From Eutreptiella sp. 'Long Island Sound 2002' (Eukaryota > Euglenozoa > Euglenophyceae > Eutreptiales > Eutreptiaceae), in contig OZ038382.1 of assembly GCA_964036045.1 (NCBI GenBank), positions 152,036,961-152,100,960 on the forward strand: a stretch of 64,000 nucleotides of DNA. Reading direction: 5' to 3'. Under the pieces are notes generated by a model, which ran no database searches, was not told the DNA's origin, and worked only from the letters and a program-made list of their open reading frames with translations. The translations under genes and the position numbers were made by a program. This document shows, piece by piece, positions 5,622 through 60,504 of the stretch. Numbering within the stretch: the stretch's first letter is position 1; the number at the start of each line of letters is the position of its first letter.

Positions 5622-6145
5622 GAGTGTGAATCCTGCCTGCTCTGCTGTACATGACAGCAGCCTGACGGTGTGTGTGTACCATAGATTCGAAAGAGTAGAG
5701 CGACACCCGCACTGTGCTCCAGGTTTTTGTGTGGCAACCCTTTGGTGGGCTCTGCCAATTTTGCAGCAGTAGTGCCTGTGCTTTTCTGCGCCCCTTGATT
5801 GACTTTTTACCATACCTTGAGTTGAGGGTGCATTGGATGATGCCAGGCGCAAAGCACAATGTGCGTGCCCTAATTGGACTTGTCACTTTGTCACTTGGTG
5901 GGCATTTTTGTTTAAAGGAGGTTTCGTCCACACAGCTTGTCTGCCGCCCAGAACTGTCTGTGCTGGTGGTGTTGTACCAAGGGTAGAGACCAATCAATTT
6001 CCTCTTTTGCCCTTCTAGACACCAGCCCCGCTATTCGTGTTTTCTTGCCCTTGTTGCCAACATCTCATCGCAAACATCTTGCCCAGTGGGTTGTTTGGCC
6101 TGTTGTTTTTTTCTTCTCGCACAGTGGGCGGATGTCGGTTGACAT

Positions 6146-40900: not shown

Positions 40901-43547
40901 CCCATCATCCCTCATCATGCCTCATCATCCCTCACCATCCCTCACCATCGCTCTCTATTACTCGCCATCGCTAACTATCCCTCATCATCCCTCACCATCC
41001 TTCACCACCCCTCATTATTCCTCGCCATCCCTCATCATGCCTCACCATCCCTCATCATCCCTCGCCATCCCTCACCATCCCTCACCATCCCTCATCATCG
41101 CTGATCATCCCTCATCATTCCCCATGATTCCTCATCCTTCTCATCAGGTGCTCGTGCCCGAGACTGTTCACTTCGATCCTGAATCGAACCGAAGGCATGT
41201 GTCGCGCAAGTCGATGCTGGACTTGCAGCACCTCGAGGCCCTGGACTGCGGGACTGTAGCGCGCCTCATCTGCGGGTCGCTCGCGGAGGTGGGCGTACCT
41301 TTGGGGGCTCTGTCGGAGCAGGATCTGAAGACGGGAATCATAGACCCCAAGATGCTGCTGTTTCCGCTGACATTTCTGTTCGTGCACTTCTGTGAGGGCC
41401 ACGGCAAACAGGCTCCGGTCCCAAACATCATTTTGGAGGACGTGCCTATGGCCGAGGAGACGCGCACCGCTGCGCAGTGGTGGGAAACACTGTACCACAC
41501 GCTCTACCGTGTCCGCGAGCGGGAGGCGGCGTGCCGGAAGCTGGTGTTGTCCCCTTGTGTCGAGTGCTGTGCTTGTCGGAGGGCTGCTGCGGTGTGATCC
41601 GGTGTCTTGGTGACGTTGCGATGGAGTTCCTGTCATCTGTGCTGCTCTAAGCCCCAAAACCCAGTGTTACGTCCAAGAAAAAGGTGAAAGGTCATTCAGC
41701 GTTGTACTAACACCTTTTGGTTCCAGTGCTCTTTGAAACTGGTCGTCGCGCCACTATATTTGTACCAAAAGCTCGGCAGCTGTAAGCGCTGGTGAGATCA
41801 CGCAGCAGTGCAGGTCGGTGACACGCAGCACCGGAACAAGCAACTGTCCCGCAGTCTGACGTTGCACTCGACTTGCCGTGCCTTTGTCCGCCTTCGCAGG
41901 TGCAAAACGCCTCGCAGCTTATTATCAAAGAACTGGCTGACAACTCCGACCTCGACCATTTCAGGGGGGTGAAGCACAAGTTTTTGCCGCAGTATGTCGG
42001 CTTCTCTCAAGACACCCTGTCGGGGGTGCTGTCGTCCAACCCCCGGAAGGACGTGCGGCACATCAGTGAGGTGGTGAGCAAGAATTTCAAGCTGCTGCAC
42101 CGCATCTACAGGTCTTCTTGCCCTCGCTGTCACGCCCATTCTCGCGCTCCCTTCTGCGATTTGCCTTGCAGACCACCCCTTTGACGGCCTCATGGGAAGT
42201 GGGGTTCTCAACGCAGGCGCGTGCACGGGGGGTTAATAGAGCCCCCGAATACTGTGGGGGAGGGTCGGAAAACGGGCTCAGTTGCTGGGACCATTTTCAA
42301 GCTCCGAGTACAACTCTGAATTTGACTGCGCCTCTTTGTAGATCATGTGGGGATCATGGAACATTGCGGGACGCTACACATCCGCTGGGTGCCAAGTGCT
42401 CTTAAACACTGGTACCACTGCCATGGGGACCACGTAAGTCCCCGGCTTGGTTTGGGGGGCCCCGTTTATTGAGCCCCTTTTTTGCCACGGAGCTTCATCG
42501 ACCCCCTCCTCCGACATTGAGCCACCCCCCCCCCCACACCCGATTGAGAGCTCTGGATTCTGGTGCACACCAGATTGTGACTACACATGAAGTCCCCGTC
42601 AGCCCCCAAGATCATCACATCAACTGTCAGCTTCAGCGATGGCCTTACTCTACTCCAAAATCCCCATCCTTTGCTCATGTGATTGGCTCAACTCTCGCTC
42701 TGGTCCTTGCCCTTGCCCGTTTCATGTCTTCTGCTGTCGCTCTCGCTCCCCCCCCCCCCCGGCGCTTTCTGTCTTCAGGTTCTATGTGAACAGCGAAGAA
42801 TTGGAGCAGGGCATGGATTTCCGTCAATTCATGAGGTTTTGTGCACACGCCAAGATCTTAGAGCCCGGGGTCGTCGACCGCCCACGCCTGTACAGAATCT
42901 TTTTCGCGGCTGTGGGCCAAAGGCTGCCAGAGGCCAGCGAGGGCCGCAAAGCGCACTTGCGCATGGGCCCCGATGAATGGGTGGTCGCATTGGTCCGAGT
43001 GGCACACCGGAAGTACAACCAGACCAACGCCTCAGTGTCCCAGAGGCTCGAGCTGCTGACCGAGCGGCACCTGGCGCATTGCCAGTACCCCGAACGTGGG
43101 TCCCCGCTGTTCCAGATCACACGGTCCGCCCGGATCCAGGAAGTGATTGACCGGTACCGCGGGCTGCTCAACGACGCCTTCAACGGGTACTGTGAAGGGG
43201 CGACGGTACCCCCGCAGCTGCACGAGGGCGAATGGCGGGAGATGCTGATGGAGTGCCATTTGGTCGACGCGACGTTCACGCACTCCGCGGTGCAGCAGGT
43301 GTTCCAGCGGGCGCAGGACATGGACGACGTCGAGGACTGCAGCCAGACGATGATCCTGCCCGAGTTCCTGGACGGGCTGGTGCTGGTCGCCATGTTCAAG
43401 CATCCGGCGCCGTACATCCCGTTGGACGAGCGCCTGGACCAGTTCCTTGTGGTCAATTTCCTGGTGCCTCTCCGCGCAAAGTTTCAGTGGGTATCCCCCG
43501 AGTTGGATGAGGCTGCCGCACGCTACAACATCACAACTCTCCGTTAG
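13517..43547 (+). CDS. Seven-exon gene for a 960-residue coiled-coil protein, function unknown
   Basis: Inferred join: 13517-13933, 16075-16426, 23035-23327, 35656-36099, 41148-41543, 41900-42111, 42779-43547. Every intron is GT...AG, phases match at all six junctions (0, 1, 0, 0, 0, 2), and the exons sum to 2883 bases, exactly 961 codons including TAG. Residues 1-139 are Pro/Ser/Arg-rich and basic. Residues 140-256 are helical (VADWLDQYHVVNASK...). Residues about 300-385 are a coiled coil (KKLRENERAQAVLLQQF...). Residues 503-705 are well-behaved globular sequence. The C-terminus (706-960) has two similar modules marked by DFRQFMRFC/DEWVVALVRVAHRKY and EWREML/ILPEFLDGLVLVAMFK, reminiscent of EF-hand-like modules in flagellar or cytoskeletal proteins; this resemblance is from memory only. 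I do not recognise the family. An exon hidden in the N-gap intron cannot be excluded. Confidence 0.75.
14211..14522 (+). pseudogene. PIF/Harbinger-type transposase fragment (DDE_Tnp_4-like)
   Basis: About 100 codons of the catalytic domain: an early Asp in WTVAVDMLGNIIW, the second Asp in GHDGAYKG, and Glu in RAHIEQLFARLW. The spacing and wording match HARBI1-like transposases, which cut and paste DNA with 3-bp target duplications. The N-terminal half of the protein and a DNA-binding domain are absent, and the frame ends at TGA 14520-14522. The word TAGCGCGCCGGGC occurs on both sides (14173-14185 and 14907-14919, same orientation) and may mark the ends of the insertion. Confidence 0.7.
14544..14903 (+). 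pseudogene. Zinc finger plus NPPF methyltransferase-like fragment
   Basis: 119 codons with a Cys/His cluster (CDECKEHYCTECIDTHTC) resembling a B-box-type zinc finger. This is followed by YCSRYLNNAYRFYW and CYPNPPFSQLAKVLTK. NPPF is motif IV of N6-adenine DNA methyltransferases, and the surrounding pattern resembles the phage-type adenine methyltransferase domain found in DIRS retrotransposons and other elements. The SAM-binding motif is not visible, so the domain is truncated. The frame is the same as the transposase fragment just upstream, separated only by stops at 14520 and 14532. Confidence 0.5.
16075..16426 (+). CDS. Exon 2 (residues 140-257)
   Basis: Acceptor TTTGCGCTCCAG, donor CCCAAG followed by GTCCTT with a C/T-rich intron start. 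Phase 0 in, phase 1 out. The encoded sequence is helix-rich and of ordinary composition (VADWLDQYHVV..., ILLDHILRLLVRLQ, VCQVRDELYASIF). Confidence 0.75.
16847..17440 (+). pseudogene. hAT-type transposase N-terminal fragment, frameshifted
   Basis: The first open frame (16847-17062) encodes a BED/CGGBP1-like zinc finger, WCDACGCPISHTTKSTVQGH followed by LDCKKHQ, which is the usual N-terminus of a hAT transposase. A second frame (17098-17394) carries FTGAGIPLDKLDHPLMRALL, the block that follows in this group. The reading then shifts to another frame around 17290 (EQFARRLLTATPHYFLICRQAVDLSIDGRT). The catalytic core and hAT dimerisation domain are missing, so it is inactive. Confidence 0.65.
18361..18500 (+). 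repeat. Partial R2 repeat
   Basis: Shares ordered words with the copies at 23515 and 24145: AAATCACCT, a TTGTTAGAT block, a TATA-like stretch, a run of C/T/G, GTAGCATACCCCAA and AACCCCTTGTAAAATCAT. It diverges on both sides. Confidence 0.6.
18560..19060 (+). other. GC-rich low-complexity stretch with Lys/Gly-rich open frame
   Basis: A frame from 18634 spells Gly/Lys/Gln-rich peptide (GKGGKGKGKPKG and similar), and the complementary strand spells Pro/Leu/Ser-rich peptide. Such frames arise readily in purine-rich DNA. It might be a basic Gag-like fragment, but no structured motif supports that. I treat it as low-complexity intron sequence. Confidence 0.35.
19830..22230. repeat. About 165-bp satellite array with an inverted central block
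   Basis: Some fifteen units share GAGGGGCCAAAATGGCTTGC, ACAACGCATTTTCAAGGCAT and TCTAGGATCATTTTTGGAA. Core positions fall about every 150-180 bases: 19885, 20052, 20213, 20370 forward; 20553, 20718, 20869, 21045 reverse; 21172, 21336, 21499, 21660, 21820, 21979, 22148 forward. Orientation switches near 20400 and near 21115. Frames across it encode apparent protein repeats on both strands because the unit is often close to a multiple of three. These are not genes. Confidence 0.85.
23035..23327 (+). CDS. Exon 3 (residues 257-354)
   Basis: Acceptor GTGCACTTAG, donor GTGGAG followed by GTTAAT. Enters in phase 1, joining G to GG to make Gly257, and leaves in phase 0. It encodes GDGLWASKAKLL..., FWRYMAVSEKKL and the first half of a heptad-rich coiled coil (QQFDKLQAEYDTQTLALREL). 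Confidence 0.75.
23515..23690 (+). repeat. R2 repeat copy
   Basis: AAATCACCTC, TTGTTAGATCAAGC, GTATATCCCCC, GTAGCATACCCCAA and AACCCCTTATAAAATCAT occur in the same order as in the copies at 18361 and 24145. The copy ends in C-rich sequence before a G run near 23731. Confidence 0.65.
24000..24340 (+). repeat. R2 repeat copy
   Basis: Contains GATGGGTTTGGGTGATCATT, a CATGGGGACCCA block, GCCATGGGCC, then AATCACCTTGCAG, GTGTATATAGGGG, a CCCTACCCCAAGGGGTTGAA block and CCCCCAATGAGTTTT. A second copy follows at 25370, and inverted copies lie at 30010 and 32770. Confidence 0.7.
24430..24720 (+). repeat. R3 repeat copy
   Basis: Contains CGAAAAAGTGGTTC, GGTCCCGACTCCATGGGGTT, GGGGCGGAGTGGGACGAGCG, GACCTCGGTGACCCCGTGGT and GGGGATGTTGTGACGGTACA in order. 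Other copies at 28890, 30590, 32050, 33200 and inverted at 33950. An open frame of about 90 codons recurs in the copies because they are recent duplicates. Confidence 0.75.
24745..25020 (+). repeat. R1 tandem repeat, first cluster
   Basis: One full and one partial unit of about 170-200 bp. The unit runs through CAGTTTTTCACCCTGGGCAG, CTCAAAAATCGAAG, a T run, TACCGTGATCACC, AATGACTATCCAAGC, GTAAAGCATGTTTTAGGC, a TTTTTCACCTTATTTGGG block, then a G run and GGTACACAAC. Confidence 0.7.
25370..25730 (+). repeat. R2 repeat copy
   Basis: Near-identical in order to the copy at 24000, including GATGGGTTTGGGTGATCATT and the CCCTACCCCAAGGGGTTGAA block. Ends in the same CCCCCAATGAGTTTT word followed by a C run. 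Confidence 0.7.
26140..27575 (+). repeat. TGCATGCCTGTGTGGCAGAT minisatellite
   Basis: About 1.4 kb of degenerate units near 30-60 bp built from GCATGCATGCCTGTGTGGCA and GATTATGCAACT words. GCATGC is self-complementary, so the array is rich in small inverted repeats. Frames on both strands spell Cys/His/Ala-rich peptides (CVADYATACMPVWQIM and variants), which are artefacts of the repeat. It ends in (CCCT)n at about 27573-27598. Confidence 0.85.
28890..29190 (+). repeat. R3 repeat copy
   Basis: Matches the copy at 24430 through GGTCCCGACTCCATGGGGTT, GACCTCGGTGACCCCGTGGT and GGGGATGTTGTGACGGTACA, with few changes, so the duplication is recent. Confidence 0.75.
29230..29710 (+). repeat. R1 tandem repeat, second cluster
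   Basis: Two full units and a partial one, with TATGTAAAGCATGTTTTAGG at about 29326 and 29529. Units are separated by G runs of variable length and by GGTACACAAC. Confidence 0.7.
29790..30330 (-). repeat. Inverted R3/R2 copies
   Basis: Reverse complements of R3 words (GGAGTCGGGACCCGGAAACA at about 29805) and of the whole R2 order (ACTCATTGGGGGATGCG, AACCCCTTGGGGTAGGG, GGCACGGGCTACATAGG, AATGATCACCCAAACCCATC). Together with the forward copies at 24-25.7 kb this makes a very large imperfect inverted repeat. Confidence 0.65.
30250..30831 (+). repeat. 582-bp block duplicated across the assembly gap (first copy)
   Basis: Reads the same as 31713-32294 with a constant offset of 1463. It includes an R3 core at 30590-30760. 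The match ends at 30831/32294, where CCCTGGG becomes CCCTAGG. Confidence 0.85.
30800..31512 (+). repeat. R1 tandem repeat, third cluster
   Basis: About four units in tandem (TTTTTCACC start words near 30828, 31016, 31204, 31409), each with the GATCACC, TGACCATCCAAGG and AAAGCATGTTTTAGGCC blocks. The last unit is cut by the N gap. Confidence 0.75.
31513..31712. other. Assembly gap, 200 N
   Basis: Unresolved bases. The flanks are repeats, and the sequence on each side occurs again elsewhere within 1.5 kb. Confidence 0.99.
31713..32294 (+). repeat. 582-bp block duplicated across the assembly gap (second copy)
   Basis: Reads the same as 30250-30831. Directly after it, about 32281-32386 repeats the about 106 bases that end at the left edge of the gap (about 31407-31512). 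This pattern suggests overlapping contig ends, not a true duplication. Confidence 0.8.
32270..32640 (+). repeat. R1 tandem repeat, fourth cluster
   Basis: Two units. In the second, an AT-rich palindromic word, TATATAGCTATATAGCTATA, interrupts the usual CACCCTGGGCAGCTC at about 32485-32510. Confidence 0.7.
32770..33110 (-). repeat. Inverted R2 copy
   Basis: Reverse complement order of R2: ACTCATTGGGGGATGTG, AACCCCTTGGGGTAGGG, GGCCCATGGC, CACTACATGGGTCCCCAT, AATGATCACCCAAACCATC. Confidence 0.65.
33200..33320 (+). repeat. Partial R3 copy
   Basis: Carries CGAAAAAGTGTTTC, GGTCCCGACTCCATGGGGTT and GGGGCGGAGTGGGATGAGCG, then leaves the family at 33315. Confidence 0.65.
33580..34300 (-). repeat. 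Inverted R1 units followed by inverted R3
   Basis: Two R1 units on the minus strand (CCTAAAACATGCTTTAC at about 33610 and 33805), then an R3 copy on the minus strand (GTACCACGGGGTCACCGAGA, CCCATGGAGTCGGGACCGAG). They mirror the forward R3-R1 order at 24.4-25 kb. Confidence 0.7.
35656..36099 (+). CDS. Exon 4 (residues 355-502)
   Basis: Acceptor CATGTTTGGCAG, donor CTGGAG followed by GTCATC, phase 0 at both ends. It encodes the second half of the coiled coil (MTQKDHEIQQKRMRAEFAQL), a Ser-rich linker and a compact segment ending LKGVLVVLE. The open frame beyond the donor runs into the minisatellite and is not counted. Confidence 0.75.
36152..39489 (+). repeat. CCATCCCTCA decamer minisatellite, first block
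   Basis: More than 300 units of a 10-bp word, with CATCATCCCT and CACCATCCCT as the commonest variants. Single-base changes are scattered throughout, so it is old or error-prone. Because three units make ten codons, long frames survive and spell IPHHPSPSLT-type peptides, up to 282 codons at 36339-37187. These are not genes. Confidence 0.95.
39490..40211 (+). other. Non-repeat island inside the minisatellite
   Basis: About 720 bp of unique sequence. Two stretches look like coding sequence: about 39536-39672 (VPLVPMGAGFVDYVLSIVND, then HFCGTEWWCESNIE) and about 39780-39900 after a CACCTACCAG acceptor-like word (LFPVPTKRMHKGHDPKDFHR). I do not recognise them. They may be a transposon fragment or a pseudo-exon pair. 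The 3' part (40050-40150) is a TTTTCCTCCA repeat. Confidence 0.4.
40212..41140 (+). repeat. CCATCCCTCA decamer minisatellite, second block
   Basis: Same unit as the first block, continuing almost to the exon 5 acceptor. Local duplications of several units are visible (compare 40480-40560 and 40560-40640). Confidence 0.95.
41148..41543 (+). CDS. Exon 5 (residues 503-634)
   Basis: Acceptor CTTCTCATCAG, donor AAGCTG followed by GTGTTG, phase 0 both ends. It encodes VLVPETVHFDPESNRR... and a compact helical region (MLLFPLTFLFVHFCEGHGKQ, WWETLYHTLYRVRERE). The donor is weaker than the others; it was chosen because it is in phase and leaves a smooth junction, CRKL-VQNASQLI. Confidence 0.7.
41900..42111 (+). 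CDS. Exon 6 (residues 635-705)
   Basis: Acceptor CGCCTTCGCAG, donor CTACAG followed by GTCTTC. Enters phase 0 and leaves phase 2; AG plus G makes Arg705. It encodes VQNASQLIIKELADNSDLDH and a basic helical end (SKNFKLLHRIYR). Introns 5 (356 bp) and 6 (667 bp) contain no feature of note. Confidence 0.75.
42779..43547 (+). CDS. Exon 7 (residues 705-960) and stop
   Basis: Acceptor TTCTGTCTTCAG after a C run; ends at TAG 43545-43547. It encodes two related modules. The first has DFRQFMRFCAHAKIL and DEWVVALVRVAHRKY. The second has GEWREMLMECHLVD and ILPEFLDGLVLVAMFK. Each pairs an aromatic/acidic helix with an [EF]..AL..VA helix. The upstream part of the frame (42639-42778) is intron. Transcript end signals are not obvious. 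Confidence 0.75.
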
Positions 43548-49499: not shown

Positions 49500-50107
49500 A
49501 TTCTGGCATATTGCTGACCAAGAACCATATACAGACCGAGAGATGAAATTTTTTTTTGCAAATTGAGCGATGCTTTGGGTCTCCACATTACTCCAACTAC
49601 CGAACAACCAAAAGGAAGGTGTGTTTGCGCCCTGGGACTGAGATCCTGGGCACCGGGAACCTCTTTTGCTGAAAAAACGGCTCGCCGGAACGTTGCACCG
49701 GAACGTTGGGTTTTTCTCGCCGGAACGGGGGGGGGGGGTTGCTGTACGCACAGCGTGCAGGACCTAAACAGGCTGACCTGAATCACTATGTTTCGGAACA
49801 AGGTTTTTCAATGTGCATTTCTACACGTTGTCTTACATATGGTGCACACACAATCCTTTGAGGGTGTTTGGTGCATCTCTTTTCCATGGGCTGTGAGAGC
49901 CGTTGCTCATTTTCTGTCGCAAGCAAAGGGCATCCTTGGCAAGGGGTGTGGGCTGTTGCAACCATCAACACCCTAGGGATGAGGTCTTTTTGAGTGGAGG
50001 AGACCGTTGTTGCAGGCCACTGCATCCCTGCCTACCTTCAAAAGGGTGTACATTGCACTGAAATGTTGCGCCCTCTGACGTGTGCGGTGTGATTTCAGCA
50101 CCCTCTT

Positions 50108-50130
50108 ACTTAGGCGGCCCAACTGGGGGT
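50108..50130 (+). repeat. Left terminal inverted repeat, 23 bp
   Basis: Begins ACTTAGGCGGCCCAACTGGG. It is the exact reverse complement of 59607-59629. CTT precedes it. Confidence 0.85.
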
Positions 50131-50195
50131 GCTAAAAAACACCCTTTTTGCCCCCTTTTGTCGGTTGTGCAGACCCCCGTCGGTGGCACCGTGTT

Positions 50196-50219
50196 GGCAC
50201 CCTGGGTTTTTGGGTGCGG
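50196..50219. other. Small stem-loop near the left end
   Basis: GGCACCC and GGGTGC flank a T-rich loop (GCACCCTGGGTTTTTGGGTG). It lies between the left TIR and the first palindrome. Confidence 0.4.
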
Positions 50220-51470
50220 TGGGAACATGGATTCCCGGAGGGGTGGTTGTCCGACACTGTCAGAATTCTGACAGTCACGTTGCCCTTGGTGGGGTGGTTG
50301 TGTAGGGACGGGCAAACGTGAACACAGCTACACAGGACTCCAACGAAACACCGCACATTTGAGTGATCTATGGAGTACTGGGGGCCGTTTGCTTTGTGTC
50401 ACGCAGTGCAGGGTCGCATACCAAGGGAACCCGGTTGTGGTCCCACATTAGAGCTCTTGTGCATGCACAGAGAGATACCCTCAGGCAGGCATACCCCTTG
50501 TCGGATTGTGTAACGATCACAATGTGTAAGGACCCGTTCCCTTGGATGGCCACGGGTGCTGCCACATGTGCCAATGTGGCTATGGTGTGTAGGCGGGGCT
50601 CAGAGTACCGGCTGTTCCGCGACATGCTGTCAGAATTCTGACAGTGAGACGTGAAGTCTGTTGTATTGGCCCGCATGTCATGTGGTTGTAGTATATGTTA
50701 CCACCCTACAGGCCTGGGGCTCGAGAACAATTTATGCAAATTGATTAGGACCGCTATGTACCATACTCAGTCTGTGCACCACCGTTCCTCAGCTGTGTCC
50801 TTCCCTGTTGCACTGCGACGCACACACACCTCTGCCTGTTGCTCCACATTGTGGTGCTACATGCATGGATGGAGGTACCCAACTACGGTGAGATGCACTG
50901 CACACAACTGTCAGACTTCTGACAGTAATGCGATGTACATTGAGCCGTGCACATGCAGAAGCACACGGTTGAAGCACTCCCCATCGGCGTGCGAAATTAG
51001 ACAGCATTGAACCGCTGTACGATCTGAGGAACCAGCAGGTAGACCCGGTAGGCATAATTGTTGCGACCGAGTCTCATGGCACCTCACACGCGACATTCTA
51101 CCGCCGTCCAGTAGCGGTATCTCCAGTGTAGCTCTGCGGCCCCTTCCCCTGTGTCGACTCATCCTGTCGTATTGCACCCCGCGCGCGAAGTAGTACCCCG
51201 TGTCACAGGACCGCAGCAGTACACCGACTGTACAGCAAACCCCCTGTAGCCCCCGGAACCCACACCAGGCTGTCAGAATTCTGACAGCACACCGCAATGG
51301 ATTAGACAGTGCAATGACGCAACAACGTCCGTGCAAACTACATGCATGAACCAGTCATTTAATGCACGCAAGATGCAGAGGTACCCCACGTTGTATCTGT
51401 AGGAGACCACATGAAGCGCACACTGTCAGAATTCTGACAGCACCGTACTCTATTCACAGAGCTGTGCTTC

Positions 51471-52739
51471 TTGTTACAGAACATGCCACGCCATGCAGTG
51501 GGCAGAGACAGAGACACAGACACAATGCACTATTTGCGCACGTTTCTCCCATTGCAATGGGACAGCGTTGAACAGCTACTTGCAGATGCCGTGGCCGGAG
51601 GATCCAGCAAGCGTTTTGTACAATTTTTCCTAGAGCTGCACGTGCGCCACAGATACCGTCACAAGTGGGCATATCTCGAAGCCGCGGTGAAGGGCCATGG
51701 ACGACCGCAACCATGGGTGGCAATCTTCAAGCAGCAGCTGCTCAATTGGTGGCGTGTCATGTGTGTACGTGCCATGCCGTACTCGCACCATACAGTTGAT
51801 GAGGTGGGTAAGTCACGGGCACAGAGGCGCAAGCTGCGGCATGCGGGGCTCCACTGCGGGCGTGACATTTCTTTGGAACAGCGTGCTGCACGTGCAGCGA
51901 AGAAAATGTGGGACCAATGTCCGAATTCTGACAGAGTGGTATGGATGGACAACTGGTTCAAGGGCCGCTTCACCACAACTCCCGGAGACAGCAACCATAG
52001 CCTGGATACCACCGTAGTAGCAGTCCTGGACAATCCCGCACCCACCCCGTACGGTGGGCACATGACAGCACAAGTTGCTCAGGGCATGTTTCTCACAGCC
52101 ACACGTGTGTGCAATTTCCTCCCTCATCTGCAAGGTGCAATTGGAGTCATAGTTGATGGGTCGCTGCGTCGGGAATGGATTCGTGTACCGGTGGACTTTG
52201 TACGCGGCACCGTGTACCCGCATAAGTGGCAACCACTCTTATTGTCAGAGATGCGGACAGGCACGCACATAGAGCTACTCCATCTCATGCAGATGATGCA
52301 CAACCTCCAGGTGCACACACGCAAGGACCTGGTTCTCTTGGTGGACATGAAAATACACGCCGCTCTTCTCAGATTTCTGTACGGCCGGGCGTATGCGAGC
52401 AGGAATCTGGCCGTGCAGTGGGCATCGGTGGGTTTTGCGTACGGAATATGGCATCCCTACAAGTACGCCTGCAAGGCTGTTTTTCGGCGCTTCTTTCGGG
52501 TGCTGGCATTGTTGATTGGCCCCGCCTTGCGGCCCACGCAGGAGGTGCCCAGTGACAGACCCTTGGAGTACTTGGAAAAACTCTACGCTGCATTACTATT
52601 GGTTGCACAATCGTGGAGGGTGCCTTTGAAGGAGATGCTGGAGCGGATTGAAGCTTTGCGCCAGCCATGGGAGCCAGAGACGGAAGTGCCTGTGAACAAG
52701 CTGACCACGCTGACCACGCATGACCACGCGTGGCTTTGA
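51471..52739 (+). CDS. Transposase-like protein of unknown family, 422 codons
   Basis: An intact frame with ordinary globular composition. Likely functional landmarks, by analogy to DDE transposases, are the acidic block VVWMDNWFKGRF (about residues 154-165), LVLLVDMKIHAALLRFLYGR (about 286-305) and WHPYKYACKAVFRRFF (about 327-342). I have seen the pattern 'DN...VD.KIH..LLR..Y...WHPYKY' in protist proteins of unknown function but cannot name a family, and no catalytic Glu can be assigned. The start may be the first Met or Met19 (ATG 51525, MHYLRTFLPL). A possible acceptor, CTTCTTGTTACAG, lies across the first codons, so an upstream exon is possible. A perfect palindrome ends 30 bases before the ORF, and another, degenerate, is translated within it as CPNSDR. 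Confidence 0.6.
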   Translation: MLQNMPRHAVGRDRDTDTMHYLRTFLPLQWDSVEQLLADAVAGGSSKRFVQFFLELHVRHRYRHKWAYLEAAVKGHGRPQPWVAIFKQQLLNWWRVMCVRAMPYSHHTVDEVGKSRAQRRKLRHAGLHCGRDISLEQRAARAAKKMWDQCPNSDRVVWMDNWFKGRFTTTPGDSNHSLDTTVVAVLDNPAPTPYGGHMTAQVAQGMFLTATRVCNFLPHLQGAIGVIVDGSLRREWIRVPVDFVRGTVYPHKWQPLLLSEMRTGTHIELLHLMQMMHNLQVHTRKDLVLLVDMKIHAALLRFLYGRAYASRNLAVQWASVGFAYGIWHPYKYACKAVFRRFFRVLALLIGPALRPTQEVPSDRPLEYLEKLYAALLLVAQSWRVPLKEMLERIEALRQPWEPETEVPVNKLTTLTTHDHAWL

Positions 52740-54121
52740 TAGGGGCTGTAGTCTCAAATCTTCGCTAACTGCTGTGCCTGTGGGTTGCGTACTTGCAGTT
52801 TGCGTTCTCGGCAATGTGTGCTCTATATATATTACTTTCGTGTGGTCTTTGGCCTGCGCACCTTGCGTGCTTCCTGCACCCCGCACAAACCTTTTCTAAG
52901 TGTGCTTTCATTGCACGCTTCAGTTGGTACAACGCGGGTCACCCTCGGTTCTTCTCGCACTGTTAGAATTTTGACAGTGGCAGATTGTGTTGGGATAGAT
53001 GGGAGGGTGACAAAGCATGCTTGTTTGATAGAGTGGGTTGTGCTGAACGGCCTCGGTGGTAGACCTCCCTCCCGTTGTTTCACCGCAATGTCTTCTAGGT
53101 TTTTGTGCAGCATACGTGCCACCGCTCACACATACATGGGTCTCCCTTACCTTTACAAACACAAATGTGCCGTTTGTTGGTGCTGTCTTGCTGCCTCCGG
53201 TGGATTACCCCCCACCTTTGCCGCATCCCGCTGCGGCTTTTGCTTTCCTGCGTGATGCCTCCAGGGGGCTGCCCCCGTGTATCGCATGCTCATTGGTGGA
53301 CTGTCGGAATTCTGACAGTCGCACACGGACTTGTCCACATGGCGCACCTCAGGCTTTGCAGGTAGACTTCATCGTAGGCCTTTGTGCCGGTTGAGTGCCG
53401 TCCATTCCATCGAGTCCAACCACATGAGGTGTGTCTCCTTTGCCCTGCACTTACCCAGTCTTTTCAGCCACACACCTCCCACCTCGCACGCCTCAATATC
53501 AGGCAACGTAGAAATGTGGGTCCGTGTCCTTTCGGGACCACAGTCGAGGTGCGACCCTGACCCTGCATCGCACATATGCGCATGGACGTAGATCGGTTTA
53601 GACATTGCCATTTAACGCGTCTGCCACGACGGGTCTGCGGTTGTTTTCCAGGGGTGGGGCACGTGTCGTCCACTCGTATCTGGGTGCTGTAGTACAAAGT
53701 GTTCCTGTGTCACTCCTGCTATTATAGAATGCTACTATGGAATTTCACGTGCCACTCCAAATGGTGTTGTCTTCGGTCCTTGTGCCTTTTCTGGGGGACA
53801 CGCATACCGTCTGCCGTCGTTGTGCATGTCCGTACGCTGGTGTTTATGGCACCGTGCATTCCTCGTGCCTGCCACAAGTGTGCGCGTCCTGACGTCTGTC
53901 AGATCTCTGACAGCGGCACCTTGTGTTGCTTTCCCGTTGACTGTGTGCAGTGCACCGCACTGCGAAACGCACCTTGGAGACCGTCGCGCAATCATTCCTG
54001 TTGCAATTGCCTTGTGCCGCACACTTTCGCGCTTGTTAGAAGACCTGCCATTTGCACCGTTGGTTTACCTCCCCCTCTTCCCCTCTCAAGTAGTGTGTTT
54101 TTACTTTCTGTTTTTTGTACC
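52740..54121 (+). other. Spacer with three palindromes, upstream of Gag
   Basis: No recognised domain. Carries palindrome copies at 52960, 53301 and 53896. An open frame on the plus strand continues upstream from the Gag start to 53699 but is Cys-rich and shows no motif, so I treat it as leader. A TATATATA stretch at 52823-52831 could act as a promoter element. Confidence 0.4.
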
Positions 54122-54796
54122 ATGAACCTTTTCACCCCCAACAAGTCGGCTAGCCCCCCGAAGGATTCGGACAATCGCGGCGTGGAGCCGTTGGTTGGAC
54201 CGTCCCCTTCTTCGCAGACGAATCCCGACCTGGAGGCCTTGGTCCGGCAACAGGCAGCAGAATTGGAGGGCCTTCGCAGGAGGCTCGAGAAGGCGGAGCT
54301 GGCCTCACCCAAGACGCCACGGCTCACGACGGAGGCCTTGGCGGAGTTCCGTGGCCGTGAGCGCCTGGCCGGGTGGATGAAGCAAACCGCGGAGTCCCTG
54401 GAGCAGTACGTGCAGCAGGTGCCTAGAGCGGACATGGAGGGCATCGAGGACCTGACTCCCGGGGAGGTTCTGGCGAACCGTGTCTGGGACACCCTATGGG
54501 ACAGCCACAAGGCGTATGAAGGACGACAACGAGCCCGCGAAGATGCCGAATCAGCCGAGGGCAAGCAGCTGGATGCCCTCCAGTGGTCTCAGGCCTCCGC
54601 CCACCCGACGGATTCGTTTCGGTGGCGAGGGGTTCGGTTCGTGCGTGAGGGAGGCGTCCTCAAATGGGTTAATGCCTCGGGACGGAAAGTCCCTGTGTCC
54701 GCCCCTGCGCCGGGGGAATGCCGCCGCTGCAAGGCCCACAGCCCCGAGACCATTGCCCCCAAGCACTGGCACTTTCAGTGCCCACACTGGGCCTGA
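54122..54796 (+). CDS. gag: Gag-like protein with C-terminal zinc knuckle
   Basis: 224 codons from ATG 54122 (MNLFTPNKSASPPKDS) to TGA 54794. Residues 1-35 are Pro/Ser-rich, and about 35-65 is a coiled coil (PDLEALVRQQAAELEGLRRR). The C-terminus has a Cys/His cluster, C-x2-C-x11-H-x-H-x2-C (CRRCKAHSPETIAPKHWHFQ then C), suited to zinc and nucleic acid binding. Position just upstream of recombinase and RT fits a structural protein packaging the element's RNA. The recombinase frame continues in the same phase after the stop. The upstream extension of the frame is not counted because Met 54122 starts the first recognisable protein sequence. Confidence 0.65.
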   Translation: MNLFTPNKSASPPKDSDNRGVEPLVGPSPSSQTNPDLEALVRQQAAELEGLRRRLEKAELASPKTPRLTTEALAEFRGRERLAGWMKQTAESLEQYVQQVPRADMEGIEDLTPGEVLANRVWDTLWDSHKAYEGRQRAREDAESAEGKQLDALQWSQASAHPTDSFRWRGVRFVREGGVLKWVNASGRKVPVSAPAPGECRRCKAHSPETIAPKHWHFQCPHWA

Positions 54797-54988
54797 CTGG
54801 ACGACCCTGCTGGGGGTGGGTGGGGCGGTCGGCGGGCGGCCTTCTGCTCGCGGGCAGTGCCCGCGGCGGTTGCCCCGGAGGTTGCGTCCGGGTTTGTTGC
54901 CAGCTTTGCAGGCTTGGCATCCGCTTGGGAGCGACTGGCGAAATCGGACGAGCGGGCCTACCCTCGAGTGGCGGCCATGCATTCCTAG

Positions 54989-56524
54989 AAGCAACGCACA
55001 AGGCAGCGGTATGGGTCGGCTATCCACCAGCTGGCGGAGTTCGGAGCATGCATCCCGGCCAGGCCCCTGCCAAAAATCCTCTCCCTCTGCATGGCGGAGC
55101 GTGCAGCCGATGGCCACTCTGCATCCGGGTTGCGCAGACTGGCGTCTGCCGTCCGCGCGGCGGAGGATTTGGCATTGGTCCCCCGGGTTGTGGCGGCCCT
55201 CCACTGGCGCATTGCAAAGTCGGGAAGAGGCCCCGGCCCGCAGGCGTACGTGTCGCCTCGAGCCCTTGTGCACATCTGGAATGCGGCCACCGCGCCGGAC
55301 GATCGGGCGGTCGCGGCGCTGGCGGCCCTATCGTGGATGATGTGGCTCCGGGTTGGAGAGGCCGCCTCCATCTGGTGCTGTGACCTTGACCGCAGGGAGG
55401 GCCTCTGGTTCTACAGCACCAAGGTGGGAGAGCCCGGATGGGTCTGTCGACCGGCCGCAGCTTACGCAAGATCCTGGATGGAATTCCTCCGAGTCTACTG
55501 CCAAGCTAAGGGGAAGCAGCCTGAAGAGCCCGTTTTCGAGGGAGGGCCCCCCTTCCTCGAGGACGCCATCGGCCACCTGCTCCGCGACACCAAGTGGGCT
55601 GATGCTCGCTGGCATGCCCTCAGAAGGGGAGGTTCCGCGGCATGCTGGGTACGCAAGCCCGCCGCCCAGTACTTCCTCTTCTGGCGGCGGTGGGCTAGCT
55701 TGCGTACCGCCATGGGTTACGCCCTGGGGTTTCGAGATCCGGAGGTGGTCGGCGATCTGGTGCTGCCGCATGTTAACGAGGCTGTGGGTCTGGGCCCACG
55801 CGGTACGGTGCTACCTGCGGCTCTGTGGGGTATGGCTATGTACGACCTCTCAAGGTTTGCGGAGCCTCCAATGGACCCGCCGCACCCGAGCCCACCGCCT
55901 CTTCTTGGGCCTACTGGAAGTACTGTGGTGGAGGACGTTCGGGAAGAGCATAGCGTCGGTGCCGCTGCCGTCGACGGCCCCCAACCGTGCCCATCCCCAG
56001 CCGTCCCAGGACCTCCATCGGAGCCACGACCAACTTCCCCTTCCCCGGCCTGCGCCCAGTCCGCTTCTCCTCGGCTGCCCCCTGAAGTCATCGTCCTGTC
56101 CGACTCTGACTCGGATGCGGATGTTGGAGATGGATCGGGAGTTCGTAGAGTTAAGGAGTGTGTGCCGAACATGGGGAGTGTCGCTGCTCCGGCGGATGCC
56201 TTCAGGGTTGGCGCGCCCGGTGCTGGGGGGGTGGGGTCACGCAAACGACCGCGGGATCCGGGATCAGGGCGACGGCAGTACGCGCCCCCCCCTCCCCCTG
56301 TCCGGCAGTACCGTGTGCCTTCCCCGTCCCGGGTGGGTGGCTCCGATGCGGTTACCCCGACCGTTAGGCCGCAGCACCTTGTACCCAGGAGGCGGGGTCG
56401 CGAGGTTACGGAGTGTCCGCCCCGTAAGCGGCCCGCGGTTGGTCAGGGTCTTGCCCCCAGTCGTGGGATTTCCGCCACCTCCGGTGGGAGCGGGGGGTGG
56501 GGCGTTGGCGCCCGATCTTCATGA
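54989..56524 (+). CDS. Tyrosine recombinase of a DIRS/Ngaro/PAT-like retroelement
   Basis: The open frame runs from just after TAG 54986-54988; its first ATG is 55091. Numbered from that ATG, the catalytic set of tyrosine recombinases is present: Arg87 in WLRVGEAAS, a candidate Lys111 in STKVGEPG, His175-x-x-Arg178 in WHALRRGG, Trp201 in the His/Trp position and Tyr210 in AMGYALGF, nine residues later. Residues encoded before the ATG (KQRTRQRYGSAIHQLAEFG) look like the SAM-like core-binding domain, so translation probably begins further upstream by reading through TAG, by frameshift or by splicing. The last about 245 residues are Pro/Ser/Arg-rich and overlap the RT frame. The protein would integrate the circular DNA copy. 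Confidence 0.75.
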   Translation, partial: KQRTRQRYGSAIHQLAEFGACIPARPLPKILSLCMAERAADGHSASGLRRLASAVRAAEDLALVPRVVAALHWRIAKSGRGPGPQAYVSPRALVHIWNAATAPDDRAVAALAALSWMMWLRVGEAASIWCCDLDRREGLWFYSTKVGEPGWVCRPAAAYARSWMEFLRVYCQAKGKQPEEPVFEGGPPFLEDAIGHLLRDTKWADARWHALRRGGSAACWVRKPAAQYFLFWRRWASLRTAMGYALGFRDPEVVGDLVLPHVNEAVGLGPRGTVLPAALWGMAMYDLSRFAEPPMDPPHPSPPPLLGPTGSTVVEDVREEHSVGAAAVDGPQPCPSPAVPGPPSEPRPTSPSPACAQSASPRLPPEVIVLSDSDSDADVGDGSGVRRVKECVPNMGSVAAPADAFRVGAPGAGGVGSRKRPRDPGSGRRQYAPPPPPVRQYRVPSPSRVGGSDAVTPTVRPQHLVPRRRGREVTECPPRKRPAVGQGLAPSRGISATSGGSGGWGVGARSS

Positions 56525-58856
56525 TGTGCCCGTGCCACCCGCGAGGTCCGTGGAGGGGGCGGGGTCGTCTGCGCGTGGGCGGTTGGGCGCCGTGGCTGTC
56601 GGCTGCGACGCGTCTAACGCCGCGCCCTCCGCCCCCGCCCGCTCCGCCCCCGCCCGGGCCGCGGGTGATGGCAGGGCGAGATTATGGGCGGTGCGCAAGT
56701 TGGTCGACGGTGGCGGACGGTGGTCATGGCGGTGGCGGTTGGCGGTGGCAAGGGATCAGCCGTCGGAGCAGGCGGTGGATGTGGGGCACCCCCCGCGGGG
56801 GTTGGGTAACTTATATGCCTGGCGGCCGCCTGGGGAGACGTCCGCGACAGTGGAGGAGTTGCGGACGCATGGGACGGTGGTTTTGGCAGGAGTTGAGGGC
56901 CTGGGTGTGGGGGGGGGGGATGGGTTGGTGGGCGGCTCCCCCCCCGGCCTACCGGGCCCGGAGTTCCCTAGGGACGGCGGCGATCCGCCGGTTGTCCCGC
57001 GGTTCCTGATGGCACTGCCCCTGTATGCCCGGGTGCTCGCCCTGTTGTCGGGGTCGGCGTGCTGGCTGCAGCGCAAGTTGTCAGCGCCAGGGCCTTTACT
57101 TTTGCAGCGGATTGAGTTGTTTGTGGATAGGGTTTTCCGGGTGGCTGAGGACTTCGCCCTGGGTTCTGCACAGGATGTGATTTGTCTGGCACTGTGCGAG
57201 TTTGCCGAACCGGCATGGGAGGCGTTGCTTCACTTGAGTACGTCGCCCAAGCCGTCGCTCGCGGCGGTGGTCCCGGAGGTGGTCCAGCGCGGGCTGGGGG
57301 CCGTGGGATCGTACCGGATCCCGGATGGTTTGTGGAGGGAGGTCGTGCCGGCCGACTTTTTGGAGTCCGCGGCGGGTTACGACGTGGAGCGAGATCCGCA
57401 GGGCGGGGCGGGTCGGGTGTCGGGGTTGGTCGGTCAGTTTTTTGCCGCTGTTGAGCATCTGGGCATTTTTAGGGAGCTCCCTGACGGTACTACACCGTCG
57501 GTTTTTCCTTTCATTATCCCTAAGTCGTCTCGCAAGGTCAGCCTTATACTGTCTTGCGTGGGGTTAAATGAGGAGTTCCCGGATCCCCCCCATTTTGCCT
57601 TACCCTCCTGGGAGGGTATTTGCCGACTTTTAAACCAGACGCCGCAACGGCTATATGCCACACATATAGACCTGACCAACGCCTTTTGGAGTTTTGTCCT
57701 GCCGGAGGGAGTAGACACGGCTTTCCGAGCTAGGATACGGCCGGGAGGACCGGTGGTGGGGGCGACGCGATTGCCTTTTGGCTGGAAGTTTTCGCCATAC
57801 CTCTGCCGGCGCATCCTGGGGGACTTGTTGCGACTACACATCCCACGGAGTGTGGAGTTACTGCATTACTTGGACAACTTCGTCTTAGTTTCGGCCGATC
57901 GTCCCTTGCTACACGGCACCAGCCGGGAGTGTGTGCGTTTGCTGGTTGAGAATAGGTTTATCGTCTCTGATAAGTCCACTTTGGAACCGGTGCAACATCT
58001 GTTTGTGCTGGGAAAGTTTTTGGACTTACAGCGCCGTATGGTTTATAGCCACAGACGCGCGTGGTTGCAGATTTTGGCTGCGTGGTTAAGGTTGGCGGTA
58101 TCCCCCATGCTAGGGCCCAAGCTGATGGAGAAATTGCTGGGCTTCCTCCAGTGGCACATCCGGCCGCGGTTGACCTCCGCGCCCTTGCTGGCGGGCGCGT
58201 ATTGTTGGGTCCGGTGGGGGGACCATGACAAGAACGTGCCTGTAAAGATCCTGCATGCGTTGGCCTCTACTTTGTGCTTGTGTGCTGAACCTTATAGGGC
58301 TTTGCCTTGGGAGAGGGCACGGCAGTTTGTTTCGCTTTCCCGCTCCCCTGTACCTGAACTTTTTCAACGCCTGAGGCCATGGTGCTGGTGCGTGGACGCG
58401 GCGTGGGACCTGTTTTCGTACAGGGTGGGGGGGTTTTCGCCGCAGGTGGGAGCCCGATCTTGGGTGGTACCCGTAGCGCGTCATACGCAACAGACGGCGG
58501 AGTTGGCGGGGTTATGCTGGGCGGTGCGGCTCGCCTTACGTTTGCGGTGGGATTGTTTGCTGTTAGTGACAGACAGTGAGGTGGCGTCTACCCAGCTTGT
58601 TCAGCTGAAGGCATCCACATGGTTAAAAATCCAGCATGCAATGTTGCGTTCGGTGTCGCGCCGGTTATGTGTTTCCAGACTGCAGGTTTATGTCGTGTGG
58701 TGCCCATCCCATTTGCACCCCGGTGATCCTTTGAGTAGGATGCAGTCAGATTTCCACGGTCGTCTTGCTCGGGCGGAGGTAGCGTCCCAGTGTCGGTGGG
58801 GAGAGCTGCTGCGTTCGTTGCACAAGTGCCGGTTTGTGGGCGGCGTGGTGCTGTAG
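55353..58856 (+). CDS. Reverse transcriptase / RNase H of the tyrosine-recombinase retroelement
   Basis: Open for 1167 codons, but roughly the first 390 lie under the recombinase frame and are probably not the real start. RT motifs: Asp773 in ATHIDLTNAFW (A), RLPFGWKFSPYL (B), YLDN at 839-842 (C). RNase H has a full acidic set: Asp1015 (CVDAAWD), Glu1050 (QTAELAG), Asp1074 (VTDSEV), and Asp1125 in WCPSHLHPGDPLSR. The order and wording match DIRS/Ngaro-type polymerases. No methyltransferase domain follows. The second catalytic Asp of the usual YxDD is Asn842, which may reduce activity or be normal for this lineage. Translation would need a +1 shift from the recombinase frame or internal initiation. 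Confidence 0.8.
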   Translation: MERPPPSGAVTLTAGRASGSTAPRWESPDGSVDRPQLTQDPGWNSSESTAKLRGSSLKSPFSREGPPSSRTPSATCSATPSGLMLAGMPSEGEVPRHAGYASPPPSTSSSGGGGLACVPPWVTPWGFEIRRWSAIWCCRMLTRLWVWAHAVRCYLRLCGVWLCTTSQGLRSLQWTRRTRAHRLFLGLLEVLWWRTFGKSIASVPLPSTAPNRAHPQPSQDLHRSHDQLPLPRPAPSPLLLGCPLKSSSCPTLTRMRMLEMDREFVELRSVCRTWGVSLLRRMPSGLARPVLGGWGHANDRGIRDQGDGSTRPPLPLSGSTVCLPRPGWVAPMRLPRPLGRSTLYPGGGVARLRSVRPVSGPRLVRVLPPVVGFPPPPVGAGGGALAPDLHDVPVPPARSVEGAGSSARGRLGAVAVGCDASNAAPSAPARSAPARAAGDGRARLWAVRKLVDGGGRWSWRWRLAVARDQPSEQAVDVGHPPRGLGNLYAWRPPGETSATVEELRTHGTVVLAGVEGLGVGGGDGLVGGSPPGLPGPEFPRDGGDPPVVPRFLMALPLYARVLALLSGSACWLQRKLSAPGPLLLQRIELFVDRVFRVAEDFALGSAQDVICLALCEFAEPAWEALLHLSTSPKPSLAAVVPEVVQRGLGAVGSYRIPDGLWREVVPADFLESAAGYDVERDPQGGAGRVSGLVGQFFAAVEHLGIFRELPDGTTPSVFPFIIPKSSRKVSLILSCVGLNEEFPDPPHFALPSWEGICRLLNQTPQRLYATHIDLTNAFWSFVLPEGVDTAFRARIRPGGPVVGATRLPFGWKFSPYLCRRILGDLLRLHIPRSVELLHYLDNFVLVSADRPLLHGTSRECVRLLVENRFIVSDKSTLEPVQHLFVLGKFLDLQRRMVYSHRRAWLQILAAWLRLAVSPMLGPKLMEKLLGFLQWHIRPRLTSAPLLAGAYCWVRWGDHDKNVPVKILHALASTLCLCAEPYRALPWERARQFVSLSRSPVPELFQRLRPWCWCVDAAWDLFSYRVGGFSPQVGARSWVVPVARHTQQTAELAGLCWAVRLALRLRWDCLLLVTDSEVASTQLVQLKASTWLKIQHAMLRSVSRRLCVSRLQVYVVWCPSHLHPGDPLSRMQSDFHGRLARAEVASQCRWGELLRSLHKCRFVGGVVL

Positions 58857-58915
58857 TGTGGTTTACGGCGGGTGAGCTTTGCTCCTGTGCGTAATGCAGT
58901 GTTTTTGTACGAGGT

Positions 58916-59164
58916 ATGCCTTGGCGTAACCGACACCACCGGCGCCCGCGCCAGCACCGGGGAGGCGTGCGACATCGCCGCTCAGTTGAGGCGGTGGGGC
59001 GGCGGCGGCTGCGGGCACAGCGGCAGGCGCAGTACGTGTTGGCCCGCCATCTGGCGCGTCGGTCGGTTCGCATGGTGTGGCTGGGGACCCAGGCACGCAT
59101 CATCACGAGATCACCACGAGATGTCTGTCTGCCAGATTTGCTTTTTGCTTCTTGCCTGTGGTAA
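58916..59164 (+). CDS. Small highly basic ORF, 82 codons
   Basis: An Arg/His-rich peptide (MPWRNRHHRRPRQHRGGVRH...) immediately after the RT gene, in a region where an overlapping longer frame (58872-59369) is Cys-rich and featureless. It could bind nucleic acid, but arginine richness follows easily from GC-rich DNA. No homolog is recalled. Confidence 0.25.
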   Translation: MPWRNRHHRRPRQHRGGVRHRRSVEAVGRRRLRAQRQAQYVLARHLARRSVRMVWLGTQARIITRSPRDVCLPDLLFASCLW

Positions 59165-59495
59165 ACTGCCATTTGCACTGCGGCCACTTTTACCCGTGGC
59201 GGCTAGATTACAAATCAGGGTTTTCCAACAAAATGACTGTCAGAATTTAAATTTCTCACAGCTGTTTGGAAGGAGCTGTGTGGGGGAGCTGAAAATGGTG
59301 CACAGGGCCATGGTTGCGTCACCATCCGATTTTCCATTGCGTGCAAACCAGGTGCCACAGACCGGGTGACTGGACGGCCAACGGTGACCCCCCTGGAAAT
59401 GGCTGTTTTCCCCCTTTTGATCATCAAAACTGACCAAAGACCCCCTCTACACCAGGTTTTTTCGTACCGGTTTTGGGGCCGATAAGTAGCAATAT

Positions 59496-59563
59496 GTGGT
59501 GCACACGGGGTGTTCCGTCACCGTGCGGGAGTGCACTGCCCGCACACGTGGGTGTGCACCACT
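59496..59563. other. Strong nested stem-loop near the right end
   Basis: Outer arms GTGGTGCACAC (59496-59506) and GTGTGCACCAC (59553-59563) are perfect complements. Inside them GTGCGGG pairs with CCCGCAC (59523-59544). It lies just before the last palindrome and the right TIR, and so is part of a structured terminus. Confidence 0.65.
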
Positions 59564-59606
59564 CCAGTTTCACTGTCAGAATTCTGACAGTGCCCCTTCT
59601 GAACGT

Positions 59607-59629
59607 ACCCCCAGTTGGGCCGCCTAAGT
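59607..59629 (-). repeat. Right terminal inverted repeat, 23 bp
   Basis: Reads ACCCCCAGTTGGGCCGCCTA then AGT on the plus strand, the exact complement of the left TIR. CTT follows it. Confidence 0.85.
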
Positions 59630-60504
59630 CTTACGCAAACAATGACAAAGGTGCTAAAAGTTGCAGAAACAGTCGACTGTATGGTTTAGATAACCATGTT
59701 GTCTATGCACAATGTCTCCCTCGGATTGGGCCAAATGGCTTCAGCCCCCTCCACCCCTGCACAAACAACGCCTTGTCCAAACAGACTCACAGCATGAGCA
59801 ACACGGTTGCTATGGCGCCCCATGGCTGTCCATAAGGTGCCAATAAAAAGGCCTCTGGTGTGGATGACGTTTTTTTCGCCCGAACCTGCCCAGACAGGAA
59901 CACCCACCAGACCAGGCAAAATGCAGTGAACACACCAAATGAGCCAACAGCAAATAGACCACATGTGTTCATGCGTATTGTGGATTGTTCACTGCATTGG
60001 GCATGGTGCTGGTGTGTGTTCAACATGATAAGCAACAGATTAAGCAACAGCGAAGTGAAAAGGTACTGGGGCCCACTGCAACACTGTGGGGGAAGGGGAG
60101 GAATTATTTGGGATCTCCATCTAATTTGGCGCCATATTTAGTTTGTGAGCAGAGCCGCGCATTTTTGCATTTTTTAATAGACCTGGGCCTTGGCCCAAGG
60201 ACAATGCCCTCGTCTTAGGCCTTCCGATAGAAGGTCCCAGAACAGGTGCCATTACCTTCGCATGGCACTGGACTTTGAGGATGTGGACCTTGCAAAAGCG
60301 TACTTCAGGTGTGCATACTTGTTGTGCCTGCCGATTCGGACTGCTCCCGCACCTTTGGAGCATGTCAGTTAAGTGTGGCAAAAACACTTGCTTCCGCATG
60401 TTCGGTGCTCAGTCTCCCTTCCTCTCTTGCCTCTGAGTGCAATGGCCAAAGAGCTGAACACTAACGAAAACATCCGTGCCCCCATTACTCGGGAACTCCA
60501 TCCC

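Follow-up and report, generated by a model that had tools for sequence, protein, structure and literature searches.

VANC proteins recognise family-specific motifs in the VANDAL transposons of Arabidopsis, which are Mutator-like elements (according to the accessible part of PMC5735166). Here we describe a DNA transposon from Eutreptiella sp. 'Long Island Sound 2002', found in a stretch of 64,000 nucleotides (contig OZ038382.1 of assembly GCA_964036045.1, forward strand, positions 152,036,961 to 152,100,960; hereafter the window). The transposon spans 50109-59628, carries the terminal inverted repeat (TIR) CTTAGGCGGCCCAACTGGGGGT and a 5-bp target-site duplication (TSD), TCTTA, encodes a protein here called p422, and is strewn with copies of an 18-bp palindrome, CTGTCAGAATTCTGACAG. 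Our analysis suggests that these palindromes are quite probably recognition sites, bound by a dimeric protein that the transposon family itself encodes. The best explanation of the data as a whole would be that recognition sites and element-encoded protein co-evolve, in the manner of VANC motifs or of the subterminal repeats bound by transposases.

At up to three mismatches CTGTCAGAATTCTGACAG is found ten times in the window (five perfect copies, two with one change, three with two), in addition to one stretched copy. The chance expectation in 64 kb is 0.02, and none of 100 shuffles reached ten. Elsewhere in the window there is no site within three mismatches, the nearest having four (at 15463). 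The first-pass annotation had listed about eleven copies, with none elsewhere in the 64 kb, more than chance would give and one of them in a coding region, and our counts bear this out. Its statement that conservation is higher in the arms than in the centre does not stand: in the family of the window element (family A) the consensus is kept at each position in 73 to 79 of 79 copies, and at the two centre positions in 75 and 74. This sample comprises the window and 16 fetched loci of family A, sites being counted at up to four mismatches; six loci (L028-L033) were excluded as duplicates of L027. The copies in the window are given below, together with counterparts in two related copies of the element (L026 and L035) and in a sister locus (L054).

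50257..50274, palindrome copy 1, perfect, 148 bp inside the left transposon end
50627..50644, palindrome copy 2, perfect; L054 counterpart by alignment ATGGTAGACTTCTGCCAG
50908..50925, palindrome copy 3, one change
51270..51287, palindrome copy 4, perfect; L054 counterpart by alignment GTGGCAGGATTCTGCCAT
51423..51440, palindrome copy 5, perfect, 42 bp upstream of the ATG at 51483; L054 counterpart TTGGCAGAATTCTGCCAA
51917..51934, palindrome copy 6, two changes, within the p422 open reading frame (ORF)
52960..52977, palindrome copy 7, two changes; L026 and L035 have it perfect
53301..53318, palindrome copy 8, one change; a different single change is common to L026 and L035
53896..53913, palindrome copy 9, two changes; L026 and L035 have it perfect
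59237..59261, stretched palindrome of 25 bp; both arms perfect in L026
59573..59590, palindrome copy 10, perfect, 38 bp from the right transposon end

A scan of the genome for the motif marks other copies of the element, as the first-pass annotation had expected. The assembly (2.28 Gb, 2205 contigs) holds 762 CTGTCAGAATTCTGACAG sites with up to two mismatches, versus 21 for the reversed control. Twenty stretches were fetched around exact sites on contigs C1 and C2, from the first places among the matches listed, and 18 of these contain the family A TIR (up to six mismatches). Both ends are present in five of the 20 (L018, L019, L021, L024 and L037); the copies measure 1.8-2.0 kb in four cases and 3.9 kb in L019, with 5-bp TSDs that are exact in L019, L021, L024 and L037 and agree at four of five bases in L018. 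No p422-like sequence was detected by tblastn in the fetched two-ended copies. The four gene-less 2-kb copies retain four to five palindromes each, at fixed places: all four have one about 39 bp from the right end, and three have another some 150 bp inside the left end. In L018 the palindrome about 150 bp from the left end is present but damaged. Per stretch read, 4 to 13 palindromes (up to two mismatches) were counted, in non-coding DNA. L018, L021, L024 and L037 also seem, as judged by eye in an alignment, to contain large inverted repeats internally, with the middle mirrored by the right part.

Site columns were compared with all other columns in six pairs of copies from the non-autonomous subfamilies. 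In the four comparisons between subfamilies the site columns are 97% identical, versus 83-86% elsewhere (L018/L036, 104/107 vs 1498/1803; L018/L019, 87/90 vs 1213/1464; L036/L019, 87/90 vs 1274/1482; L036/L023, 35/36 vs 455/545). Among the six left-hand sites in the window, L038 and L039 each change is confined to one copy; the coding copy 6 is perfect at the same place in L038 and altered differently in L039. Since each change is private to one copy, the changes, that in copy 6 included, fit a history in which perfect sites drifted after insertion. That the palindrome is a motif widespread among bacteria or viruses was considered and rejected: the exact palindrome was found in five stretches of genome_contigs (257 Gb), about the chance level (some four expected by simple 4^18 arithmetic), and in two of viral_contigs (eight viral stretches with a free centre), always as a single site. 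An 18-base piece of the TIR is absent from viral_contigs.

Related elements carry palindromes of their own. These were first found by an unbiased count of short gapped palindromes around p422 relatives, for which shuffles gave two at most; the count reached only 2-3 in L039, because its sites have decayed. Five families can be told apart.

Family A (window, L038, L039): palindrome CTGTCAGAATTCTGACAG, left end CTTAGGCGGCCC
Family B (L040, L044, L046): palindrome TATCGAAATTTCGATA, left end YTTAGACGAACC (three loci)
Family C (L042, L043, L048): palindrome TTCCGAAATTTCGGAA, left end CTTAGACGGCTG (one locus)
Family D (L045, L047, L049): palindrome CATTCGAAATTTCGAATG, left end CTTAGACGGCCC (three loci)
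Family E (L041): palindrome TGCTGGCACCAGCA, no end found

When the five motifs were searched in all 13 loci with up to one mismatch, each locus showed 4 to 9 sites of its own motif and none of any other. Proteins of different families are 30-40% identical; loci of one family are 84-98% alike in protein or DNA, and the independent sample is therefore five families. Own-motif sites (up to two mismatches) avoid the p422-like gene: two of 103 fall inside it, where 53 would be expected from its share of the span. This count covers 11 of the 13 loci, L047 and L049 being excluded, with gene limits set by homology and hence approximate in L038, L039, L042, L044 and L046. The genome holds 251 exact copies of motif B, versus 0 of its reversed form, and a scored p422 relative lies within 12 kb of 48 of the 50 sites listed (0.06 expected). 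The ends CTTAG[AG]CG are common to families A, B, C and D despite their differing palindromes. Both ends were found in the two family B copies inspected, with 5-bp TSDs AATTG and CAATG. Features of a class II element, TIRs at both ends and a fixed 5-bp TSD, are thereby seen in the window, family A and family B.

The protein of the sister locus L054 is 67% identical to p422 (residues 11-242). Its end, CTTAGGCGGCCCATTGGGGGG, is of the A type, and its palindrome, CTGGCAGAATTCTGCCAG, differs from CTGTCAGAATTCTGACAG by the same change in both half-sites. All nine L054 sites within three mismatches of CTGGCAGAATTCTGCCAG read G at position 4 and C at 15, a count that is biased on its own, the sites having been picked by closeness to CTGGCAGAATTCTGCCAG. 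Save for the perfect CTGGCAGAATTCTGCCAG itself, L054 has no site within two mismatches of CTGTCAGAATTCTGACAG. Among the 79 family A sites, position 4 is T in all 79 and position 15 is A in 75. Three of the switched L054 sites align with window sites 50627, 51270 and 51423, in DNA that is otherwise 53% identical. Such a joint symmetric change at dispersed sites is as predicted for a dimeric binder with altered specificity.

The putative binder is most likely the p422-family protein, whose gene in the window is as follows.

51483..52739, + strand, p422, candidate transposase or DNA-binding protein, without the C-terminal part of its relatives

The frame gives 422 aa from the TTG at 51471 and 418 aa from the ATG at 51483. 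In a genome search the 100 best of 6017 first-look candidates were scored; among these, relatives share 83-92% identity, with one at 67% and large groups at 31-37%, and their open frames reach 778 aa, extending beyond the p422 C-terminus. At window positions 52712-52719 similarity changes from L038/L039-like DNA, which encodes the longer protein, to L026/L035-like DNA; this junction is either an internal deletion that truncated p422 or a chimera. Nine aligned proteins share the motifs W.DN, GH, D.K, RF.YG and YG.WHPYK, and the acidic residues of W.DN and D.K are invariant in all nine, in proteins with neither a Pfam or Protein Data Bank (PDB) match nor a confident structure. Six p422-family proteins searched against Pfam gave no family with a meaningful score and no BED or hAT domain, and the PDB gave no sequence match. 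A 713-aa relative had no Pfam match at all at E <= 1, THAP included, an absence of match that is no proof. Contig scans, which reach close relatives only, confirmed none for p422 or for the reverse transcriptase (RT) and recombinase-like protein described below. From their repeated occurrence, the TIRs and the invariant acidic residues, our guess is that the p422-family proteins may be DDE-type transposases.

Taken together, these data suggest the following mechanism. Dimers of an element-encoded protein would bind the paired half-sites of the palindromes. With its own family's palindrome and protein, each element would be addressed by the protein of its own family only. The array would recruit the protein over the element and either build a transposition complex or keep the element unmethylated and expressed, two outcomes we hold about equally likely. 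Changes in single copies would reflect drift after insertion. The first-pass annotation had proposed binding sites for an element-encoded dimeric protein, and this part of its reading gains support, on sequence grounds, from the sites marking element copies, staying in place and having changed symmetrically in the sister. The recombinase, which it named as a possible binder, is unsupported in that role because it lies within a separately inserted retroelement that holds no site. Segregation control, also suggested there, would answer no evident need in a chromosomal transposon with TSDs.

Several observations weigh against this interpretation. The expectation that sites stay fixed while their surroundings change holds between subfamilies but not in closer pairs, which show no contrast (L018/L022, 52/54 vs 1153/1200; L018/L023, 33/35 vs 529/550), nor in gene-bearing, autonomous-type copies, which are about 90% alike and whose sites are not better conserved than the rest in any of five comparisons (102/108 vs 92.9%, 97/108 vs 89.8%, 97/108 vs 91.2%, 48/54 vs 91.0% and 48/54 vs 88.9%). 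In L054 the site opposite the coding copy, CTGTCGGAAATTTGCCAC, has only one half switched, with T kept at position 4 and C at position 15. Family E is a single locus without identified ends. Predicted protein structures have a mean predicted local distance difference test score (pLDDT) of 38 and 40 and contain no confident DNA-binding or catalytic domain. The relatives also have other ORFs beside them, one of 403 aa in L040 and two of 519 and 474 aa in L041, and the binder could be another element protein such as one of these.

Two forms of the preferred explanation, recognition by an element-encoded dimer, differ in what the sites are mainly for. In the first, the sites are subterminal repeats bound by the transposase, and their sole role is to bring the ends together when the element excises and inserts, as in hAT elements and Galileo; it is a serious candidate for the main role that stops somewhat short of probable. 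The retention of sites at set distances from both ends in gene-less copies argues for it, as do Galileo and Hermes, described as having several transposase sites inside their ends (in the accessible parts of PMC3688188 and PMC10368747). Against it, the sites are dispersed throughout the non-coding DNA, none (up to two mismatches) was found in roughly the first 400 bp from the identified left end in families B, C and D, and the family B site nearest the right end is some 530 bp away. In the second form, which we hold more tentatively as the main role, the sites would be targets for anti-silencing or transcription control by a protein that, like VANC, keeps methylation off the element and so maintains its expression. 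Site clusters directly before and after the gene are in keeping with this, and the layout is that of VANC targets, short non-coding motifs across the whole element that differ between related families (as far as PMC5735166 is accessible). VANC motifs are tandem, however, whereas the present ones are dispersed and palindromic, and the sites persist in gene-less copies too.

Readings without an element-encoded binder fare worse. That the elements adopted operators of a host transcription factor is improbable: the half-site TGACAG presumably resembles known homeodomain sites, but the palindromes differ by family and track each family's own protein, and motif A changed along with the protein in L054. 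Still less credible are functionless palindromes that are themselves mobile or spread by conversion within the element; many near-exact copies in one element would fit, yet the sites are nearly absent from the gene, occupy the same places across subfamilies and are tied to element families in the fetched loci. Least probable of all is the first-pass proposal of RNA hairpins for packaging or processing: perfect copies with ten flanking bases on each side fold at -11.6 to -17.5 kcal/mol and the window's three arm changes outside the gene all retain sense-strand G·U pairs, but 65 distinct sites show no significant strand bias (15 sense and 9 antisense G·U, two-sided P 0.31; 12 other changes) and a single compensatory change, the carrier is a DNA transposon, and the nested retroelement holds no site.

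This retroelement was part of what the first-pass annotation took for a single element; empty sites and separate TSDs reveal two nested ones. The TIR given in that annotation had also wrongly included one base of the target duplication.

50104..50108, left 5-bp TSD TCTTA
50109..50130, + strand, left TIR CTTAGGCGGCCCAACTGGGGGT
54045..54057, left 13-bp TSD of the nested retroelement, CTGCCATTTGCAC
54058..59165, + strand, nested retroelement of 5108 bp, without a palindrome inside and absent from L026 and L035
54122-54796, gag-like frame of the nested retroelement
54989-56524, tyrosine-recombinase-like frame of the nested retroelement
55353-58856, RT/RNase H frame of the nested retroelement
59166..59178, right 13-bp TSD of the nested retroelement, CTGCCATTTGCAC
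59607..59628, - strand, right TIR
59629..59633, right 5-bp TSD TCTTA

L026 and L035 match window 52719-54060 (L035 from 52773) and then run straight into 59166-59275; the 13-bp word CTGCCATTTGCAC occurs once in L026 and, with one change, once in L035. From these empty sites and from CTGCCATTTGCAC on both flanks we conclude that the retroelement entered a DNA transposon copy that measured about 4.4 kb. At 92% similarity and with a further insertion in common, L026 and L035 represent one line of descent rather than two independent witnesses. All ten palindromes and the stretched copy lie in transposon DNA, none in the 5.1-kb insert. The RT matches Pfam RVT_1 (E 9.3e-11) and has the motif YLDN rather than YxDD; the recombinase-like frame was recognised by its motifs by eye, without a Pfam match. 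A tyrosine-recombinase-type element with TSDs would be unusual. Terminal or split repeats of the nested element were looked for and none was found. A single DIRS-like retroelement comprising the whole was also considered and rejected: no internal complementary region or split direct repeats were found, and the RT block was inserted separately, as its own TSD shows. The TIR measures 22-23 bp and no 10-base TIR word occurs elsewhere in the element, while DIRS1-like elements have inverted terminal repeats of 66-316 bp in one survey and internal complementary regions (accessible part of PMC3266345).

Some further features were noted. A 5.9-kb insertion splits a further family A copy on contig C1 (186012100-186017980; L026 from about 7090 to L027 at about 4490). 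This insertion contains tandem repeats of about 193 bp, is common to L035 and has a 12-bp duplication, GCTGTTTGGAAG, directly adjoining the stretched palindrome. L027-L033 (C1, 186.0-187.1 Mb) show the same 368-bp right end seven times, with the same breakpoint and outer flanks that resemble each other, which suggests segmental duplication close to a contig end. Elsewhere in the window, 36000-41000 holds about 5 kb of a repeat that is rich in pyrimidines and strongly skewed (units like CATCATCCCTCA, GC skew down to -0.83), and an open frame at 6143-7558 contains an exostosin GT47 domain (E 7.6e-27).

Whether these elements form an undescribed superfamily of eukaryotic DNA transposons, whose transposase-like protein reads a private code of dispersed palindromes and co-evolves with it, seems to us evenly balanced. 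Its traits would be the ends CTTAGRCG, a 5-bp TSD, an orphan protein of about 700 aa and perhaps thousands of relatives in one genome. If so, matched pairs of protein and code would allow many families to live side by side in a genome without mobilising or activating one another. The genome offers a natural series of such pairs, including one symmetric half-site switch between sisters, and makes two questions testable: by what means transposon families keep their machinery to themselves, and how a binder and its many dispersed sites change specificity together.

Mutator-like elements have TSDs of 8-11 bp, a range outside which the 5-bp TSD found here falls, and hAT elements have TSDs of 8 bp. 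Bacterial REP palindromes are extragenic repeats without a TIR transposon body. What REP/RAYT systems have in common with the present case is that palindromes are tied to a transposase family (in the accessible part of PMC2817692). The repeats of Hermes, a hAT element, are interspersed too; its transposase binds them by means of additional domains, two of which are bound by a quasi-palindromic pair, but they are 4 bp long and lie mostly near the ends (as far as given in PMC10368747). In Galileo, of the P superfamily, several family-specific protein sites also lie inside the transposon and the outermost ends are conserved between families; there, however, three sites are identified in a long TIR, whereas here the TIR is short (22 bp in the window) and sites run throughout the non-coding part (accessible part of PMC3688188). 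The THAP domain of Galileo and P has no match in Pfam here. In the VANDAL elements, short family-specific motifs also occupy non-coding parts of a DNA transposon and differ between related families, and the protein that recognises them is encoded by the element; those motifs are tandem, the present ones dispersed palindromes of 14-18 bp (accessible part of PMC5735166). The candidate binder here, in turn, is a transposase-like protein without a Pfam domain. The arrangement described here may be a palindromic counterpart of VANC-type motif arrays.

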